Shown here: piece by piece, positions 15,948 through 24,265 of the stretch
How positions within the stretch are numbered: position 1 is the stretch's first letter
Layout of the letters: every line of letters starts with the position of its first letter
Assembly: GCA_903878085.1 (NCBI GenBank)
Contig: CAIRGJ010000037.1
Coordinates: forward strand, 1 to 58,066
Source: an uncultured Hyphomicrobiales bacterium
GTDB lineage: Bacteria > Pseudomonadota > Alphaproteobacteria > Rhizobiales > Xanthobacteraceae
Direction: 5' to 3'
DNA: 58,066 nt
Notes under the pieces: model-generated
What the model was told of the DNA's origin: nothing
Databases searched by the model: none
Seen by the model: only the letters and a program-made list of their open reading frames with translations
Position numbers and translations under genes: made by a program

Positions 15948-16823
15948 CTATACAACCGCTTCATCTTCGAAATCGGGCAGGCACGATGGCAGCAACAAGG
16001 TGATTTTCGTGCCTAGATTGAGCGGCTCCGTCATCAAGACGCCGCGTAGTTGCAGCGCCCGCCGCCGCATATTGCCGAGTCCGTGGCCGCCAATCGCCTC
16101 CGCAAACGGCCTGCCGTCGTTTTCGATCGAAAGTGCGGCTATGCCGTCCGGCGCCGTTGCGCCGCGGATGATAATCTTGCGCGCGGGTCCATGCTTGAGC
16201 GCGTTGGTGATCGCCTCCTGAAGGATGCGCAATACCGCGAGCGCATTGCCTGGTGTGACGCCGGACACTTCCGGCAAACTGGCAATCGAGCAGTCCAAGT
16301 CGATGCCAAGGCGCTGCAATTGAGGCATAAGGCGCTCGCGATCGCCGAGATCGAGCGAATAGATCACCAGCCGCAGGTCGTTCAAGGCCTCGCGAGCAGC
16401 AAGTTCGGTTGGCTTCTCGCCGGACCGCTCCGACAGGGCGATGATCGACACCAAGTGGCCGCTGATGCCGTCGTGCAGATCGTGAGTAAGCCGCTGACGC
16501 TCCTGTTCGCGAATGAGCTGGGCGGCTTCGATCCGCTCTTTGCGAGATAAGACGGCAAGCTCAGCCTCGCGTTCGGCCAGCGTGCGCTGGAGCGTTTCGT
16601 TCGCCCGATCGACGCGACCGAGGCTTACGCCCATGCGGCGCATCAGAACCGCTGCGAGCACCGCCAAGAAAAGCGGCCGTCCATATGGCGTCAACAAGAA
16701 TAACGGATGCGCCGGGAGCGTCGCCACGACGTAAACATCCCGGACCGAGAACCAGGTCCAAACGAAAAACGGCGCCAACAACAGACGTGCGTCGGCGTTT
16801 CTTTTCCAGATAGTGCCCCACAC
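15948..16823 (-). CDS. histidine kinase C-terminal part (HisKA_3 and ATPase domains)
   Basis: 291 residues from a GTG at 16823; the frame is open further upstream without a better start. Two hydrophobic segments precede a coiled coil (DRANETLQRTLAEREAELAV). The phosphoacceptor is in RLTHDLHDGISGHLV, the N box is LQEAITNALKHG and the G box GGHGLGNMRRRA. This is the NarX/DegS-like kinase class that pairs with LuxR-type regulators. It appears to be the 3' part of the disrupted gene 15948-17772. It could still be translated as a truncated kinase, but it lacks its sensory domain. Confidence 0.7.
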   Translation of the reverse strand: MWGTIWKRNADARLLLAPFFVWTWFSVRDVYVVATLPAHPLFLLTPYGRPLFLAVLAAVLMRRMGVSLGRVDRANETLQRTLAEREAELAVLSRKERIEAAQLIREQERQRLTHDLHDGISGHLVSIIALSERSGEKPTELAAREALNDLRLVIYSLDLGDRERLMPQLQRLGIDLDCSIASLPEVSGVTPGNALAVLRILQEAITNALKHGPARKIIIRGATAPDGIAALSIENDGRPFAEAIGGHGLGNMRRRALQLRGVLMTEPLNLGTKITLLLPSCLPDFEDEAVV

Positions 16824-17037
16824 AAGAATGGCCGTCGAGGACGTAATGCCAAGAGTCCAAAGGCGGCGGCACTGAGCGCGGAAATTGTTCTGGTGAGAGG
16901 GGAACCGAGGAATGCACAGATGAGACAGACGGACGTCACGGCAATAATCAAACCCAACAAAGCTCTCGGCGGACGCACATCAACCACCGCCCACGCTGTA
17001 CCGACGAGCAAAAGTCCCGCCGCCGGTATGACGGCAG

Positions 17038-17772
17038 TTAAATACGGCATGCAAGTTCAAAGCCTGGCTGGAACCCTAAGAGATTTCCGGTCGCACTAAT
17101 GAATGTCACGACACTCAAAGCTGCGAGCCAGGAAAACATCGTATCCTGGCGGCGCATAAAATACACAAGAATCAAGCCGATGCCCGTTAGGATATGCGCG
17201 CCAAATCCTATGGATTTCACATGTTCATCCAGGAAGAGCCGCCATTTGAAGAGCGGCGCCAACGAAGCTTCGCTGCCGAGATACAGTCGTGACAGATAAG
17301 TTGGAGTAACGGAGCGGCCAACTTGGAAAATGATCGCAAGTTGATTGCGGCCGGCGATGAGTACAGGGCGCGGCAAGTGAACGAGATCGGATGTGTTAGA
17401 GACGGGGCCAGTCCATAGCGCGGTTGAGACGCTGTCAAACAAGGTCTCACCGTTGAGCGCGAGCGATATGTGCCGGTTCAGCGTTGGAATGTAGAGAAAC
17501 AAGCCATCGTCGGGTACGGCCGATAATTCGAAGTGGATCCTATATCGTGCCGTCGCGGACTGGCTGAGCTGCGGATACATCGCATGCGGCAGAGCCACCT
17601 CCCTGCCATCCTCGCTGCCGAATTCGTAAACTGCATGATCGAGGACGATTGCATCCTGCGGCTCGGTTTGCTTCACAAAATCCGGTGCCGCGGCAAACGC
17701 CAATGTGGCGATCACCACCGCAGCCCAGCGGATGGAGCGGGTCCAGGTCACAGGAGGATCACAGAGCGGCAC
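17038..17772 (-). CDS. sensory N-terminal part of the disrupted histidine kinase
   Basis: 244 residues with an N-terminal hydrophobic segment (IRWAAVVIATLAFAAAP), then a beta-rich extracytoplasmic domain (about 30-170) resembling 7TMR-DISM/jelly-roll sensor modules, and then the first membrane spans (HILTGIGLILVYFM, WLAALSVVTFISATGNLLG). It ends abruptly at a TAA at 17038, while the next frame continues with membrane spans. It is best read as the first piece of a frameshifted kinase. Confidence 0.6.
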   Translation of the reverse strand: MPLCDPPVTWTRSIRWAAVVIATLAFAAAPDFVKQTEPQDAIVLDHAVYEFGSEDGREVALPHAMYPQLSQSATARYRIHFELSAVPDDGLFLYIPTLNRHISLALNGETLFDSVSTALWTGPVSNTSDLVHLPRPVLIAGRNQLAIIFQVGRSVTPTYLSRLYLGSEASLAPLFKWRLFLDEHVKSIGFGAHILTGIGLILVYFMRRQDTMFSWLAALSVVTFISATGNLLGFQPGFELACRI

Positions 17773-17964: not shown

Positions 17965-18720
17965 TCACAGACGGATCAGGCCGCGCCGCGAAGCCTCATA
18001 GACGGCCTCCGATCGATTGTTGGTTTGTAGTTTGCGGTAGATATTCTTGATGTGCACCGGCACTGTTTGTTTCGAGATTTCCAGCCGCTCGGCCAATTCG
18101 CCATAGGTGAAGCCTTTGGCAATTCCCCACAAAATGTCCATCTCGCGCGGCGTCAGCGGCTGTACGTCGGTCTGTTCGGGAGCTGAATTCGGCTTGGCTT
18201 GCCGCGCGCCAAAACCGCGCACGATGGTGCGGGCGATGGTCGATGAAATCGGCGAACGTCCGGCAAGCAGTTCGGTGATGGCGTCGAGAATATCGATCGG
18301 ATCGCTGTCCTTCAGCAGATAGCCTGTGGCCCCCGCTTCGATGGCTTCGATCACATTGCGGTCGTCGGCCAGTACCGAGATCACCATCGCTTCGGCATCG
18401 GGCTGATTTGTCCGCAGCATGCGAATGGCCTGCACCCCATGACCATCGGGCAAGTTGAGGTCGGTGATCAGAAGATCGATGGGTTTATCGCTGATCGCAG
18501 CTTTAGCCTCCGCAAGCGTGCCGCATGCCGCGACCAACTGCCCTCCGGGCCAGCTGCTGATGATAGCCGCCAGGCGCTCGCGCACGGGCGTGTCATCTTC
18601 GATCAGTAAGATGCGACAAGGAGTCTCGGCTTGACGCTTCATGTCGCCCACTTCGCCCGCTGCCGCAGCAGCCGCCCCATAGACTTGCACTATACCTGCT
18701 TCGGCGCCTGGGATTGTCAT
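17965..18720 (-). CDS. NarL/LuxR-type response regulator
   Basis: 251 residues from the first ATG. An internal ATG at 18642 (MKRQAETPCRILLIEDD) gives a more usual 225-residue protein. Receiver domain: acidic ED, phosphoacceptor D in LLITDLNLPDG (residue 61 from the second start), and the conserved K in YLLKDSDP. The C-terminal LuxR HTH is LTPREMDILWGIAKG...YGELAERLEISKQTV. It lies 192 bp before the start of the frameshifted kinase in the direction of transcription. It is divergent from the curli-like locus, the arrangement of csgD and csgBA in enterobacteria, so it is the obvious candidate regulator (inference). Confidence 0.9.
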   Translation of the reverse strand: MTIPGAEAGIVQVYGAAAAAAGEVGDMKRQAETPCRILLIEDDTPVRERLAAIISSWPGGQLVAACGTLAEAKAAISDKPIDLLITDLNLPDGHGVQAIRMLRTNQPDAEAMVISVLADDRNVIEAIEAGATGYLLKDSDPIDILDAITELLAGRSPISSTIARTIVRGFGARQAKPNSAPEQTDVQPLTPREMDILWGIAKGFTYGELAERLEISKQTVPVHIKNIYRKLQTNNRSEAVYEASRRGLIRL

Positions 18721-18908: not shown

Positions 18909-19298
18909 ATGAAATCATTGCGACCAATAGGCGCGACGTTGGCGGCGGCGGGACTGTTGGTCCTTTCGACGGCCGCTCAGGCGCAAAGCACATCGAGCAA
19001 TGGCTCGAACGCCGCCTCCGGCAGGATGTGGGGATCGTCCAGTTCGACCGGCAACGCAACGGATTCGAGCACGATACATAGCCAGGACGCCAACGCCGCC
19101 GGCCAAGTGAACGCCGCCAGGCTGGGCATGCTCATCGGTAACGGACCGAGCTTAACGATCACGTCTATCGGCTCACAGAACATCGTCAGCACGACGGTCC
19201 TTGGGAATAATAATTCGACCAATGTGAACACGACACAAACCTCGACGAACTCCGGATCCGTATCGAACAACGGCACGATCGCGAGAAACTCGCCATAG
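18909..19298 (+). CDS. small secreted Ser/Asn-rich protein (candidate amyloid or nucleator)
   Basis: 129 residues from ATG 18909, behind a GGGGACTGGGGCG ribosome-binding region; an in-frame ATG at 18894 lacks one. The signal peptide is MKSLRPIGATLAAAGLLVLS with cleavage near AQAQS. The mature part is rich in S, N, T and G (SSSSTGNATDSSTIHSQDAN) and ends in strand-turn sequence (GSQNIVSTTVLGNNNSTNVN, then TQTSTNSGSVSNNGTIARN), like the Asn/Gln ladder repeats of curlin-type proteins. No known family is firmly recognised. As the first gene of the divergent locus and just upstream of a CsgG homologue, it may be an exported fibre subunit or nucleator. Confidence 0.75.
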   Translation: MKSLRPIGATLAAAGLLVLSTAAQAQSTSSNGSNAASGRMWGSSSSTGNATDSSTIHSQDANAAGQVNAARLGMLIGNGPSLTITSIGSQNIVSTTVLGNNNSTNVNTTQTSTNSGSVSNNGTIARNSP

Positions 19299-19334
19299 AA
19301 ACGGCGAAGCACGGGACGTTTCACGGCATGCAGT

Positions 19335-19351
19335 GCGCGGAGCATCCGCGC
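19335..19351. other. short perfect hairpin ahead of the csgG-like gene
   Basis: GCGCGGA-GCA-TCCGCGC forms a 7-bp stem with a 3-nt loop, directly upstream of GGGAAG and 20 bp before ATG 19371. It could attenuate transcription or mask the ribosome site of the csgG-like gene; no T-run follows. Low certainty. Confidence 0.35.
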
Positions 19352-19381
19352 GGGAAGTGAGTTAGGTACCATGCGAGCGAT

Positions 19382-19390
19382 GGGGGGGGG
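19382..19390 (+). repeat. G9 homopolymer tract at the start of the csgG-like gene
   Basis: Nine consecutive G follow ATG 19371 and ATG 19380. In the present length, translation from either ATG stops at TAA 19392-19394. With one more G (or two fewer) the frame would join the CsgG-like coding sequence. It would then add a basic N-region to what is otherwise a very short lipoprotein signal. This is a candidate phase-variation or slippage site, or a homopolymer sequencing error. Confidence 0.7.
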
Positions 19391-19429
19391 CTAAGTGCAG
19401 GGCGCAATGCAGCCCTCAAAGCGGCTCTG

Positions 19430-20257
19430 ATGGCCGCCACGCTTATGTTGGGTGGATGCGCCGGGGGCTCGTCGTTCTGGAACACCTCCGATACCGATCT
19501 CGGCGGGCCGGACCGCAAGATCAGGGTCCCCGTCACCAAGGCGTCGATGCCGAGTTCAGTGCAGCCCTATCCCCGCATCGAGGGAACGCTGCAATGCATC
19601 CGGCGCACCGGCGTACTGCGTGGCAAGACCTTCGTTGTTGGCCCGTTCGCCGACTCGACCGGCAAGATCAACGCGGTGGCGGTCGGCGCGACCGGCAACT
19701 TCATCCCACAGGGCGGCAGTTCGTCCTACGTCACCGACGCACTGACAAAAGCCGGCGGCCAAGTGGTTTCGACTTACTTCGGGACGCCGACCAAGGCAGT
19801 GCCCTCGCAGTACGCCGTCAACGGCATCTTCAACAGCCTCGATTTCGGCACGCTCGCGCAAGCCGATGTACGGGTTTCCGGCATTGGCCCGACGCTCGAA
19901 CTCGGTTGGGCACAGCTTTCGCTTTCGATACAGCTCGATGAAGTGGCGACGCGGGTCAACCGGCAAATGAGCATGATTCAGCGTCCGGTGCGCTACACCC
20001 AACTTGGCGCGACCTCAGGGGCGATATTCAACAACTCGCTCGTGACCGGCAGCGCCAATGTGCAAAATCAAGAGCGTCTTCAACTCGAGGCGCTCAATGG
20101 ACCGATCGCGCTCGGCATCGCCGACGTGATCATGAAGGAATTCCCGCGCGCACGGCAGGAGTGCCTCGAGAAGATCGCCGACCTGCTGATCAAAGATGAC
20201 TATCAAAGTGACAATCCGCAGAGTTTGGCAACGGCCGCGATCACCGGACTTTATTGA
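19430..20257 (+). CDS. CsgG-family outer-membrane lipoprotein (curli-type secretion pore)
   Basis: 275 residues from ATG 19430. A lipobox LGGC occurs at residues 7-10, but the signal before it is too short and lacks a basic residue. The likely true N-terminus begins at ATG 19371 and is out of frame because of the G9 tract. The body fits CsgG/HfaB: RGKTFVVGPFADSTGKIN, then a Gly-rich segment and TDALTKAGGQVV, a GIFNSLDFGT strand and ELGWAQLSLSIQLDEVATR. Near the C-terminus comes GPIALGIADVIMKEF. CsgG forms a nonameric pore exporting curlin. It is followed 26 bp later by two large repetitive secreted proteins, its probable cargo. No CsgE or CsgF homologue was recognised. Confidence 0.8.
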   Translation: MAATLMLGGCAGGSSFWNTSDTDLGGPDRKIRVPVTKASMPSSVQPYPRIEGTLQCIRRTGVLRGKTFVVGPFADSTGKINAVAVGATGNFIPQGGSSSYVTDALTKAGGQVVSTYFGTPTKAVPSQYAVNGIFNSLDFGTLAQADVRVSGIGPTLELGWAQLSLSIQLDEVATRVNRQMSMIQRPVRYTQLGATSGAIFNNSLVTGSANVQNQERLQLEALNGPIALGIADVIMKEFPRARQECLEKIADLLIKDDYQSDNPQSLATAAITGLY

Positions 20258-20283
20258 ACTGAGCCGGCAACAGGAGAAGGAAA

Positions 20284-21624
20284 ATGACAGGGAAGTCTCT
20301 CTACCTTATGACGGGTGTTGCCGTAGCGGCGCTCCTGGCGGGCGCCCCCAGCGCATTCGCGCAGACGGCGGTCAGCCAAACGGCACTCAACAACAACGCC
20401 GTGATCAACACCGGCACCATCGGGACTGGCGCCGGCAGCCTAGGCCTCGGTGCCTCTGTGGCAGTCAGCGCGAGCGGCGCCGTATCCTCCACCTCATCGA
20501 CCGCGATCAACCAGGCGTTCGACGCGCCAAGCATTGGCGATGTTAATCAGGCTGCAACCAACGGCCAATGGGGCGTTCCTAACATAGGTATTAGCAACAC
20601 CGGCTCGCTCACAATTGGTGCCGGCACAGCTCAAGCGGGATCCTCGGCATCGGTTGGCGCGAGCGGCGCGGTTGCCGCTCTTTCTCTCACGGGCATCGGT
20701 GGCGCCAATAACTCAGCCTTCGCCGCGCAGTCCGTCGGCAACGTGACCCAAGGTACGGGTACGCCGAATATTCCAGTAAACGGGCAGTTGGTAAGCATCA
20801 CCAATGCCGGACCTGTCACCAACTCGGGAAGCATCGCCGCGTCCGGTTTGACGCTATCCGGCAATGGCGCGTCGGCTTCGGTCAGCGCGACCGGTGGTAT
20901 GGCCTCGGTATCAAGCACGTCCATCAACGCAACGTCATCCGGGACCCGGACAATCGGCACGGTTGAGCAGTCTGTCTTAAACACCGGCACCATCGGCAAC
21001 ACCTCGACCGGGCTGACCGTCGGCGACCTCTCAGGTGCTGGTACATCGGCGTCGGTGGGCGCCACTGGCGCGGCCGCATCGATTTCTGTTGCTTCGCTCG
21101 GCAGCGCCGGTGTCGCCGGCACGAACGTTGGCAACGTCAGTCAGAAGGCAGCGAGTCTATTGGACGTGACGAATACCGGTGGAACTGTGACGACTGGTGC
21201 GCTTTCGGGCAGCGGCGCAGGTGTGTCCATCAGTGCCACAGGAGGCATGTCCTCCGTTTCTCTGGCAAGCATCGGCAGCAATGCGGCGGTCAATACTGTT
21301 GGTACGGTCAACCAGACCAGCAGCGGCGTTGCACCGGTTACCAACTCCGGCACCATCTCGTCGGGTCCGCTTAGCGGCGTCGGCAGCTCGGCCGGCATCA
21401 GTGCGACAGGTTCGGCCACGTCGTTCTCGACAAGCAGCATCAGCGACACGACCGTCGGCGGCATTCCGGTGGTCGGCAATATCACTCAAGCTTCGAGCAC
21501 GAACCACGCTGTGCAGAATACCGGCACAGTAACGCTCGCTGCCGGCAACATGGGCAATGGTGCTAGCGCGGCGGTCTCGGCGATGGGCGCGGGTTCGTTC
21601 GTCTCGTTCCGTAGTGTGAAATGA
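20284..21624 (+). CDS. large secreted repeat protein A (about 7 units; putative CsgG cargo)
   Basis: 446 residues. The signal peptide is MTGKSLYLMTGVAVAALLAG, cleaved near AFAQT; the ribosome site is GGAGAAGG. The mature protein is almost entirely A, S, G, T, V, N and consists of about seven imperfect units of 45-60 residues. The unit pattern is N-T/S-G-T-I, then LSG-x-G-ASASV, SATG, xASVSxxSI and VGxVxQ, suggesting stacked beta-strands (solenoid or amyloid). There is no cysteine in the mature part. The last unit (TLAAGNMGNGASAAVSAMGA, ending SFRSVK) is nearly the same in protein B and may be an export or anchoring signal. The family is not recognised; a surface fibre or matrix role is inferred from the CsgG-like gene just upstream. 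Confidence 0.85.
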   Translation: MTGKSLYLMTGVAVAALLAGAPSAFAQTAVSQTALNNNAVINTGTIGTGAGSLGLGASVAVSASGAVSSTSSTAINQAFDAPSIGDVNQAATNGQWGVPNIGISNTGSLTIGAGTAQAGSSASVGASGAVAALSLTGIGGANNSAFAAQSVGNVTQGTGTPNIPVNGQLVSITNAGPVTNSGSIAASGLTLSGNGASASVSATGGMASVSSTSINATSSGTRTIGTVEQSVLNTGTIGNTSTGLTVGDLSGAGTSASVGATGAAASISVASLGSAGVAGTNVGNVSQKAASLLDVTNTGGTVTTGALSGSGAGVSISATGGMSSVSLASIGSNAAVNTVGTVNQTSSGVAPVTNSGTISSGPLSGVGSSAGISATGSATSFSTSSISDTTVGGIPVVGNITQASSTNHAVQNTGTVTLAAGNMGNGASAAVSAMGAGSFVSFRSVK

Positions 21625-21679
21625 ACTTAAGCCCAACCAACAAAACTCTGTGAATTTATCCGCAACAAGGGGAACTAAA

Positions 21680-23191
21680 ATGACACGCAAGTATCACTAT
21701 CTCATGGCGAGCGTTGCGGTGGCAGCGATCATGGCTGCCACGCCCAATGCCTTCGCGCAGACGGCGGTCAACCAAACGGCGACCAACAACTCGGCCGTAT
21801 CCAACCTTGCCACGAGCGCGATCGACACCGGGGTCGGCAACCTCGGGCTCGGCGCTTCGGTGGCGATCAGCGCCAGCGGCGCCGTATCGTCGACCTCGGC
21901 GACGGCGATCAACCAGGCCTTCAACGCGCCGACCTTCGGCTCCGTCACGCAAGGTGCAACCAACGCAGCGGCCGGCGATGTCAGCAACCTCGGGACGCTG
22001 ACGATCGGTACGGGTGCCGCTGGGTCGGGTTCGTCGGCATCGATTGGGGCAAGCGGCGCGGTTGCCGCGCTATCGCTCGCCGGTATCGGCGGTACCGGTG
22101 TTGGTACTAACTCAACCTTTACCGGACAGACTGTCGGCGCCGTTTCGCAGACCTCCGGCAACGCCGCAGGTGTTACCAACTCCGGAAGCATCGTCGGCGC
22201 TGGTCTGACACTGAGCGGCAGCGGCGCATCTGCCTCGGTCAGCGGGACCGGTGCCATGGCCACGGTGTCGAAAACTTCCATCGACGCAACGTCGTTCGGG
22301 GCCACGACGATCGGCGGGGTCGGGCAAACCGTCACGAACAGCGGGACGATCGGCAACACCTCAACCGGCTTGGCCGTCGGCGCCCTCTCGGGCGGCGGCG
22401 CATCGGCGTCGGTCGGCGCCACCGGCGCGGCGGCTTCCGTCTCCGTTGCCTCGATCGACAGCCCTGGCGCCACTGCCGGCGCCATCGCCGGCACCACGAT
22501 CGGTGCGACGGGGGGAGTTGGGCAAACCGTATCGAACACGGGGGCTACCTCCAACAGTTCGACTGGATTCACCGTCGGAGCCCTCTCGGGCAACGGCGCG
22601 TCGGCGTCCGTGGGCGCCACGGGTGCGGCCGCGTCCGTTTCCGTTGCCTCGATCGGCAGCGCTGGCGTCGGCAGCTCGACCGTCGGCAACATCACTCAGT
22701 CGTCGACCAACAATAACGCGACCGGCGTGAGCAATACCGGCGGCACCGTGACGACCGGCAATATTTCGGGCAGCGGCGCCGGTGTCTCGATCAGCGCGAC
22801 GGGCGGCATGAACTCGGTCTCGCTTTCGAGCAACACCAGCAATGCGGCGGTCAATACCGTTGGCACCGTCGGCCAGACCACGGCCAGCACGGGACCGGTC
22901 AGCAACACCGGCATCATCTCGGCAGGCCTGCTCAGTGGTGTCGGCAGCTCGGCGAATATCGGTGCGACCGGTGCGGCCTCGTCGTTCTCGGCCAGCAGCA
23001 TCAACGACACGACCGTCGGCGGCATTCCGCAGGTGGGCAACATCACGCAAAGCTCAACCAACAATGCGGGCAGCGCTGTCAGCAATACCGGCAAGATCAC
23101 GCTTGCTGCCGGCAACATGGGCACCGGCGCCAGCGCGTCGGTGTCCGCAATGGGCGCTGGCTCATTCGCCTCGTTCCGCAGCGTGAAGTAA
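21680..23191 (+). CDS. large secreted repeat protein B (about 8 units; paralogue of protein A)
   Basis: 503 residues from ATG 21680, preceded by AAGGGG in the same spacing as in protein A. The signal peptide is MTRKYHYLMASVAVAAIMAA, cleaved near AFAQT. It has the same repeat grammar as protein A with one extra unit: units 4 and 5 both carry VGALSGxGASASVGATGAAA, indicating an internal duplication. The end (AGNMGTGASASVSAMGAGSF, then SFRSVK) matches protein A. The two genes are a tandem duplication separated by 55 bp. It is probably another CsgG-exported fibre component (inference). Confidence 0.85.
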   Translation: MTRKYHYLMASVAVAAIMAATPNAFAQTAVNQTATNNSAVSNLATSAIDTGVGNLGLGASVAISASGAVSSTSATAINQAFNAPTFGSVTQGATNAAAGDVSNLGTLTIGTGAAGSGSSASIGASGAVAALSLAGIGGTGVGTNSTFTGQTVGAVSQTSGNAAGVTNSGSIVGAGLTLSGSGASASVSGTGAMATVSKTSIDATSFGATTIGGVGQTVTNSGTIGNTSTGLAVGALSGGGASASVGATGAAASVSVASIDSPGATAGAIAGTTIGATGGVGQTVSNTGATSNSSTGFTVGALSGNGASASVGATGAAASVSVASIGSAGVGSSTVGNITQSSTNNNATGVSNTGGTVTTGNISGSGAGVSISATGGMNSVSLSSNTSNAAVNTVGTVGQTTASTGPVSNTGIISAGLLSGVGSSANIGATGAASSFSASSINDTTVGGIPQVGNITQSSTNNAGSAVSNTGKITLAAGNMGTGASASVSAMGAGSFASFRSVK

Positions 23192-23219
23192 AGCCGGCGT
23201 AACGGCCAGGCATGACATT

Positions 23220-23257
23220 GCAGAGAGCCGGATTCGAACCAAGGTTCGGCTCTCTGC
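23220..23257. other. 11-bp-stem hairpin after repeat protein B, with a T-arm-like loop
   Basis: GCAGAGAGCCG and CGGCTCTCTGC pair perfectly around a 16-nt loop. On the minus strand the loop region reads GGTTCGAATCC, the tRNA T-arm consensus, but no complete tRNA cloverleaf can be built upstream. It lies 28 bp after the repeat-protein B stop, so a transcript-end or stability structure is plausible; no T-run follows. Confidence 0.45.
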
Positions 23258-23298
23258 GTATCGCAAGTGAAAAGCTGACACCGTGTGACGGGTGCCTT

Positions 23299-24063
23299 AT
23301 GAGGAATTTCATTCTTGCGTTCGGATTGACGGTCGCTATGATCATCATGGCCGGTTCCGTTGCTGCGCAAGCTCAGTGGGCGACGGCGCGCTCGTATCAA
23401 GAAAGATCGCCGCCACCGACCGAGCCGTCGATTGCTGTTGCCGCCCCACCAGCCTCACCCATTCCGCAGGTCGTGCCGCCGAAACCAGTCGTGCGGCACA
23501 TCGTCGTGCAACGGCACGCCAAAGGCCTTGCAATCCCCGTGACCACCCCGCCGCCCGACGTGCTTGTGATCATGGTGCGTGCCGCGCTTGCGGGCGTTAA
23601 TCAGGCAAATTTCACGGAGAACTATTCCGTCCTGCACGGCATGACGACACCGGCGCTGCAAACACGCGTGAATCCCGCCCAGTTCGGCAAGGCGTTCGTG
23701 AGCCTCCGCAAGCAAAATCTCGATCTGTCACCAGTCCTCGTCCTGCCGCCGCAGTTTACGGCGACTCCGGCAGTGACGCCGCAAGGCCTCCTTAGGCTCA
23801 CCGGCTTCTTTCCGTCGCGTCCGTTACAAATCAATTTTGCAATCGACTACCTGCCCGTTGACGGCTTTTGGTTGATTGACGCCATCTCTGTATCGGCGTT
23901 GCAGGCCGGCGTACCGGCACCCGCGCCGAGCCCCGTATCGGCCGCGCCGAGCACGAGCCCGTATGCGGCAGCACCTGTCATGAAGTCTGACTTCTGGGAG
24001 GCCCGCTTCACAAAGACCACTCATTTCGGACCGCGTTTGAGTTTCGCGGCCCAGCCACGTTAG
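23299..24063 (+). CDS. secreted Pro-rich protein of the curli-like locus, function unknown
   Basis: 254 residues from ATG 23299; the open frame extends upstream through the hairpin to a less likely ATG at 23212. The signal peptide is MRNFILAFGLTVAMIIMAGS, ending AAQAQ. A Pro-rich linker (about 34-70) precedes a mixed alpha/beta domain at about 88-200 (VMVRAALAGVNQANFTEN-type helix, then LRLTGFFPSRPLQINF and YLPVDGFWLIDAISV strands) with an NTF2-like look. A second Ala/Pro linker and a basic tail follow. No family is firmly recognised. Its position suggests a periplasmic or surface accessory factor of the export system. Confidence 0.75.
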   Translation: MRNFILAFGLTVAMIIMAGSVAAQAQWATARSYQERSPPPTEPSIAVAAPPASPIPQVVPPKPVVRHIVVQRHAKGLAIPVTTPPPDVLVIMVRAALAGVNQANFTENYSVLHGMTTPALQTRVNPAQFGKAFVSLRKQNLDLSPVLVLPPQFTATPAVTPQGLLRLTGFFPSRPLQINFAIDYLPVDGFWLIDAISVSALQAGVPAPAPSPVSAAPSTSPYAAAPVMKSDFWEARFTKTTHFGPRLSFAAQPR

Positions 24064-24079
24064 GCGACCGGGGTTGCCA

Positions 24080-24265
24080 ATGGACGACAAACAGAAATTT
24101 GCCGAAGGATTTCTTCAAGGCTGGCAATCGGTGGCGGGGCCCAGATTGCATTTTCCTGTAATTCCGGCGCCGCCTGCGCAAGTCAGCGGATCGCCATTTA
24201 TTCACGGCCTCATGAAAGGCATTGCGGCTGCCAAAAAGGAAATGGCTGAATTGAGCTTCGCGTGA
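24080..24265 (+). CDS. 61-residue conserved-looking cytoplasmic protein
   Basis: Starts at ATG 24080 (MDDKQKFAEGFLQGW), 16 bp after the preceding stop, with GGGG just upstream. It has no signal peptide. A helix with aromatic residues (FAEGFLQGWQSVAG), a Pro-rich turn (FPVIPAPPAQ) and a Lys-rich helix (GLMKGIAAAKKEMAEL) can be seen. It is in the same orientation and probably the same transcript as the curli-like genes. Function unknown. Confidence 0.6.
   Translation: MDDKQKFAEGFLQGWQSVAGPRLHFPVIPAPPAQVSGSPFIHGLMKGIAAAKKEMAELSFA

Follow-up and report, generated by a model that had tools for sequence, protein, structure and literature searches.

The 58,066-nucleotide stretch analysed here, contig CAIRGJ010000037.1 from an uncultured Hyphomicrobiales bacterium, is called the window below, and the system in question is a cassette of plus-strand open reading frames (ORFs) within it that encodes a lipoprotein of the CsgG/HfaB superfamily together with secreted proteins, two of them large and built of repeats. 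The original prediction had read the region as a curli-like secretion locus with unusual cargo and perhaps an undescribed curli variant, and its row of plus-strand genes with short gaps is confirmed for five ORFs at 18909–24063, with intergenic gaps of 131, 26, 55 and 107 bases in order. The features of the region, in window coordinates, are:

15948–17772, minus strand: sensor histidine kinase that probably pairs with the response regulator, with coding stretches in different frames
17965–18720, minus strand: response regulator with a receiver domain and a LuxR-type helix-turn-helix, divergent from the cassette
18909–19298, plus strand: small Asn/Ser-rich secreted protein of 129 amino acids, signal peptide predicted by eye, in the HfaA position; no relevant Pfam match
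19382–19390, plus strand: nine G in a row, lying after the upstream ATG codons and before the part of the pore gene that codes for the conserved N-terminus
19430–20257, plus strand: CsgG/HfaB-superfamily lipoprotein (below, the pore protein), 275 amino acids from the first ATG, in the HfaB position
20284–21624, plus strand: repeat protein 1, 446 amino acids, signal peptide by eye, 7 unit starts, presumed cargo
21680–23191, plus strand: repeat protein 2, 503 amino acids, 8 unit starts, paralogue of repeat protein 1
23299–24063, plus strand: Pro-rich secreted protein of 254 amino acids, accessory; no Pfam match
24080–24265, plus strand: short ORF, probably outside the system; no match in 8 related loci

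Neither the five plus-strand proteins nor the short ORF matched a relevant family in Pfam or NCBIfam. The order small protein, pore, repeat protein is found in all eight pore loci (the window, L013, L014, L015, L016, G303, G403 and G422), with the predicted Asn/Ser-rich small secreted protein upstream of the pore in each of them, and the CsgG-superfamily pore and the repeat-built secreted proteins beside it, which had been taken to belong together, thus form one unit in 8/8 loci. A repeat protein is encoded in every related locus searched except L011, a false match, and L013 and L014 likewise carry two copies of the repeat gene. The cassette is rare in the order, where the pore cassette was found in 3 of 396 other genomes sampled. 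The repeat profile matches four of the 347 genomes in the order sample at E 1e-6 or better, including its own, and only its own genome among 385 of the class sample; repeat protein 1 as query found two genomes in a family sample of 100, its own and G091.

The original prediction had named repeats occurring without a CsgG homologue as a finding that would count against it. All four genomes with repeats in the order sample have the pore; in G091 repeats are present and the pore gene was undetected, at a locus where the repeat ORF starts at base 6 of the contig, so that this genome is not decisive. It bears on the alternative that the repeat proteins lie on the surface without being the cargo of this pore, which would then export the small protein only, or something else. 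Such a reading draws on G091 and on the fact that export of the repeats by the pore is deduced from sequence, but the linkage in all eight loci, several of them with differing flanks, the presence of the pore in all three other order-sample genomes with repeats, the contig-edge position of the G091 ORF and the absence, as judged by eye, of any other outer-membrane secretion gene from the cassette make it improbable.

Superfamily membership and relatives of the pore protein

The Pfam CsgG model (PF03783) matches neither the pore protein nor anything else in its own genome, whereas a profile built without the window family finds the pore protein at E 4.6e-15. Homology to CsgG/HfaB is thus seen with sequence profiles other than that of Pfam, and computation shows that the lipoprotein at 19430–20257 belongs to the CsgG/HfaB superfamily. 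The predicted CsgG-family lipoprotein therefore stands as a superfamily member, by way of the better-matched profiles, and falls as a match to the Pfam model; a missing CsgG profile match, listed at the outset as grounds for dropping the idea, is seen with Pfam and not with those profiles. In a structure comparison of the predicted pore CsgG ranks first, with a poor model (predicted local distance difference test, pLDDT, 48; 7 sequences).

The lipobox Cys of the pore protein is residue 10, and further conserved Cys are found at 56 and 245. In a 19-row alignment there are two Cys columns besides the lipobox, the N-terminal one filled in 13 of the 19 rows (in three further rows a Cys stands three columns off) and the C-terminal one in 14. 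Both are present in all six window-family rows and in all three rows of the f93-type CsgG loci (L018–L020); the HfaB-type rows have the N-terminal column in 3/3 and the C-terminal column in 2/3, and E. coli CsgG, L030 and L031 have neither.

A tree of 31 rows, drawn with a midpoint root, places the window pore family (7 rows) in one group with 100/100 support, sister to the f93 group at 99/99, and these two join a set of eight HfaB-type rows and two others at 90/100, while E. coli CsgG groups with L030–L033. Left out of the tree were the L010/L067 pore (unknown bases in the ORF), the weak CsgG-profile matches L042 and L048, and duplicate loci; the L010/L067 pore was also left out of alignment A1, and L041 out of the HfaB-type set A4. 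The HfaB-, HfaA- and HfaD-type labels of L036–L045 were assigned here from gene order and motifs. By computation, the conserved gene order and the HfaB-side placement in this one tree are shown, and the tree supports, rather than proves, that the pore falls with HfaB-type proteins and not with E. coli CsgG. The pore is like that of Caulobacter HfaABD in its place on the HfaB-type side of the tree and in the Cys pair common to both. The f93-type loci, which hold the sister pore group, likewise encode small secreted proteins, both upstream and downstream of the pore, but their downstream partner is a short ORF (144–189 amino acids) and not a multi-unit repeat protein.

The pore and repeat profiles found nothing useful among the sequences of solved structures, and the pore protein had no match in a plasmid collection at E 0.01. 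Of nine relatives of the L039 pore that are encoded on plasmids, eight are named 'CsgG/HfaB family protein' by NCBI. Sub-threshold matches of the pore to FlgI were not taken as relatives. Neither were nine class-sample matches of the pore profile A1 that cover profile positions 35–126 only; among eight of these ORFs inspected by eye, six resemble the flagellar P-ring protein FlgI and two are ambiguous; the eight leave out L023. A match in G237/L011 (E 6.8e-4) was dropped, as it is by eye similar to a tRNA-dihydrouridine synthase. In another locus, L070 (13.5 kb, genome G594), three CsgG-family genes lie within about 10 kb, at least two of them with a small Asn/Ser-rich secreted protein upstream, and genome G594 has five CsgG matches in total.

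The repeat proteins, the small protein and comparison with curli

Both tandem proteins are built of a unit of about 58 residues that carries a long Ser/Ala/Val strand. The predicted repeats are real: the autocorrelation of repeat protein 1 is 0.219 at lag 58, against 0.189 for the highest of 200 shuffles, and that of repeat protein 2 is 0.239 at lag 66, against 0.204. Tandem Repeats Finder reports no DNA array in the repeat genes, indicating that the repeats have diverged at the DNA level. Units were counted with patterns fitted to the window, which undercount in distant relatives (no unit starts in L016 and two in L066), and the repeat proteins of L008/L066 and L016 were left out of alignment A2. 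The proportion of nonsynonymous differences (pN) is 0.171 both between the two window copies and between copy 1 and its counterpart in L013; gene conversion between the window repeat genes is therefore possible, and the duplication is not datable from this value.

Structure prediction of repeat protein 1 gives, in the best of five models, an all-beta, solenoid-like fold, by which the repeat proteins are suggested to be solenoid-shaped. The original prediction had asked for structure models of the repeat proteins, and the fold obtained would fit an adhesin and a curli-like subunit equally well. No Foldseek match to the PDB was found for it at E 0.001 or better, and most of the VIA-align rows are beta-helix proteins of a general kind, from which no particular family is claimed. 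The small protein has an apparent single degenerate repeat unit in its C-terminal part, with a unit score that beats all 50 of its own shuffles, suggesting that it shares the unit with the large proteins. In alignment A3 the small protein of L010 is partial, and the small-versus-repeat E-values of tblastn, which was run without composition correction or filtering, were left unused.

Like curli (csgBAC-csgDEFG of E. coli K-12), the cassette has a CsgG-superfamily pore, secreted repeat proteins and a solenoid-like prediction. Unlike curli, it has the unit of about 58 residues in place of the curlin repeat; curlin repeats (PF07012), CsgE and CsgF were all undetected in its own draft genome (64 contigs, 99% complete; E. 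coli controls positive), and the window-family pore is without at least 23 alignment columns that E. coli CsgG and the HfaB-type rows have. The passages of PMC3521004 drawn on here describe Alphaproteobacteria without csgC, csgD and csgE, and in about half of the genera without csgF too, CsgA homologues with up to 22 repeats in some orders, and likely CsgG-family paralogues outside curli. Going by these passages, neither the lack of CsgE and CsgF nor a long cargo marks novelty alone. The expected lack of a recognisable CsgE or CsgF thus holds for the draft assembly as a weak mark, since many alphaproteobacterial curli systems are without them, and in the claim that the cargo is unlike curlin the difference in unit holds, while a length above 150 residues is not unusual alone.

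A true curli variant would have the repeat proteins as amyloid subunits, the small protein as a CsgB-like nucleator and the pore as a strongly diverged curli CsgG. The likenesses above fit such a system. Opposed to it are the genome in which no curlin repeat was detected, the unit of about 58 residues with its Ser/Ala/Val strand compared with the curlin pattern X6QXGX2NX10 given in the same passages, and a pore that the tree puts with the HfaB-type proteins. With a gene order that is also hfaABD-like, the curli variant of the original prediction is set aside as unlikely.

Proposed export cassette and its state in this strain

With a probability of roughly 0.6, we consider the locus to be an HfaABD-like but diverged cassette for the export of repeat-built surface adhesins. 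The order small, pore, large is also seen in the hfaABD-type loci L037, L038 and L039, and is that of Caulobacter hfaABD itself. In the proposed mechanism the lipoprotein would assemble into a ring-shaped outer-membrane pore, through which the small protein, exported by Sec, and the two large ones would pass in an unfolded state, to fold once they are outside. Beta-solenoid rods with about 58 residues per turn would then form from the large proteins; the small one-unit protein may cap, nucleate or tether these rods, and all together might make an adhesin or an anchoring layer on the cell surface. The adjacent two-component system, a possible local regulator, may switch it. Pore function, cargo identity, surface location, adhesion and regulation are in this scheme what we infer. 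The cassette differs from HfaABD in that the small and large proteins have no detectable homology to the HfaA- and HfaD-type proteins compared and in that the large protein is present in two copies. Length of HfaD is no separator: three HfaD-type ORFs have 224–261 amino acids, and an ORF of 485 amino acids in L044 is also found by the HfaD-type profile (E 2.1e-7, with high bias).

Several results weigh against an HfaABD-like cassette. The small protein was tried as a true HfaA and this is not supported, the comparison with the HfaA-type profile (four rows) giving a hhalign probability of 5% (E 0.0073) and no hmmsearch match; the large proteins against the HfaD-type profile gave a hhalign probability of 0.1 and no hmmsearch match, in a comparison of low power with three rows and fast-changing repeats. 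Two of the eight small proteins do not outscore their shuffles for the repeat unit, and an ordinary hmmsearch with the small-protein profile misses the repeat proteins. Only the best of the five repeat-protein models is confident, and the pore model is poor, as given above. In the tree L036, a member of the HfaB-type set A4, is placed elsewhere with weak support, and the branch of the window clade is long, at 4.4 changes per column, so that long-branch attraction is possible. The genome has a single Poly_export match with no polysaccharide cluster around it, its neighbours having been read by eye only and with no gene-by-gene hfs search, and a holdfast is therefore unsupported. Finally, two genes of the window have frame problems: in the pore gene the ATG codons upstream are in another frame than the conserved stretch coding for the N-terminus, and the histidine kinase gene is spread over several frames.

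The frame of the N-terminal stretch makes the start at 19430 doubtful, and the true start of the pore is probably upstream of it. No other G/C run in the window reaches a length of 7; the nine-G run could be a length-variable switch, an assembly or sequencing fault, or decay. The pore N-termini are uninterrupted in L013, L014 and L015, as is the histidine kinase in L013 and L014 (open frames of 621 codons, in two tandem copies in L013). From the frame breaks in pore and kinase, the system in this strain may be off, decaying or mis-assembled. The ratio of nonsynonymous to synonymous differences (pN/pS) between the window and L013, L014 and L015 is 0.16–0.18 for the pore gene and 0.35–0.42 for the small gene, and for the repeat genes it is 0.25–0.35 between the window and L013 and L014; all four core genes look constrained. 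The locus might thus be non-functional or switched off in this strain, left over from a system that is functional in relatives, as the pore stretch out of frame beside the nine-G run, the kinase gene in several frames and a Pro-rich protein without the SPOR end of two relatives would suggest. The long open frames, the pN/pS values well below 1 in the four core genes and the chance that the frame problems are sequencing or assembly faults argue the other way, and we give a remnant a low probability.

The HfaABD-like cassette could be taken one step further, to a third type of surface assembly in the CsgG superfamily, next to curli and the anchor of the holdfast. Here an HfaB-type pore would export a one-unit starter and long rods made of a like unit of 58 residues, and the adhesive fibre or coat in which these co-assemble would involve no CsgE, CsgF, curlin or holdfast polysaccharide; this is a tentative proposal. 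What looks new is a subfamily of the pore that has a repeat cargo of its own in Hyphomicrobiales, and no paper on the cassette was among the matches listed from open-licence PubMed Central. The CsgG/HfaB export family has been known chiefly from curli and the holdfast of Caulobacter; the cassette would carry it into an order in which such cassettes are rare, and the regularity of the cargo makes modelling feasible. Should solenoids of 446–591 residues indeed leave through this pore, that would show the breadth of passengers that CsgG-like pores can choose, and the cassette would be a compact system for testing whether a one-unit protein starts or caps assembly.

Flanking genes

The two-component genes are common to the window, L013 and L014, and the neighbouring response regulators in L013 and L014 are 72–75% identical to that of the window. 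L013, L014, L015 and G091 have in common the Pro-rich gene and another gene for a small secreted protein; L015 and G091 share one more gene, and L015 and the window have one gene further out in common. No flank of L016, G303, G403 or G422 is found in the loci just named, save the Pro-rich relative of G403 and weak pairs (28–34% identity), one each, between L015 and L016 and between G422 and the window.

The small cytoplasmic protein that had been counted as part of the system (24080–24265) is rejected, having no match in the eight related loci searched. The predicted Pro-rich secreted protein is conserved, its gene being present in six of nine loci with G091 counted; two relatives that were scanned, L013 11815–12975 and L002 1843–2946 (in L013 and G091), carry a C-terminal SPOR domain, which the shorter window copy is without. 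A small secreted gene follows the Pro-rich gene at L013 13088–13414, L014 12931–13326, L015 5588–6115 and L072 2990–3514 and was not found in the window; its product in L015 repeats Trp-Gly/Ala-Asn motifs.
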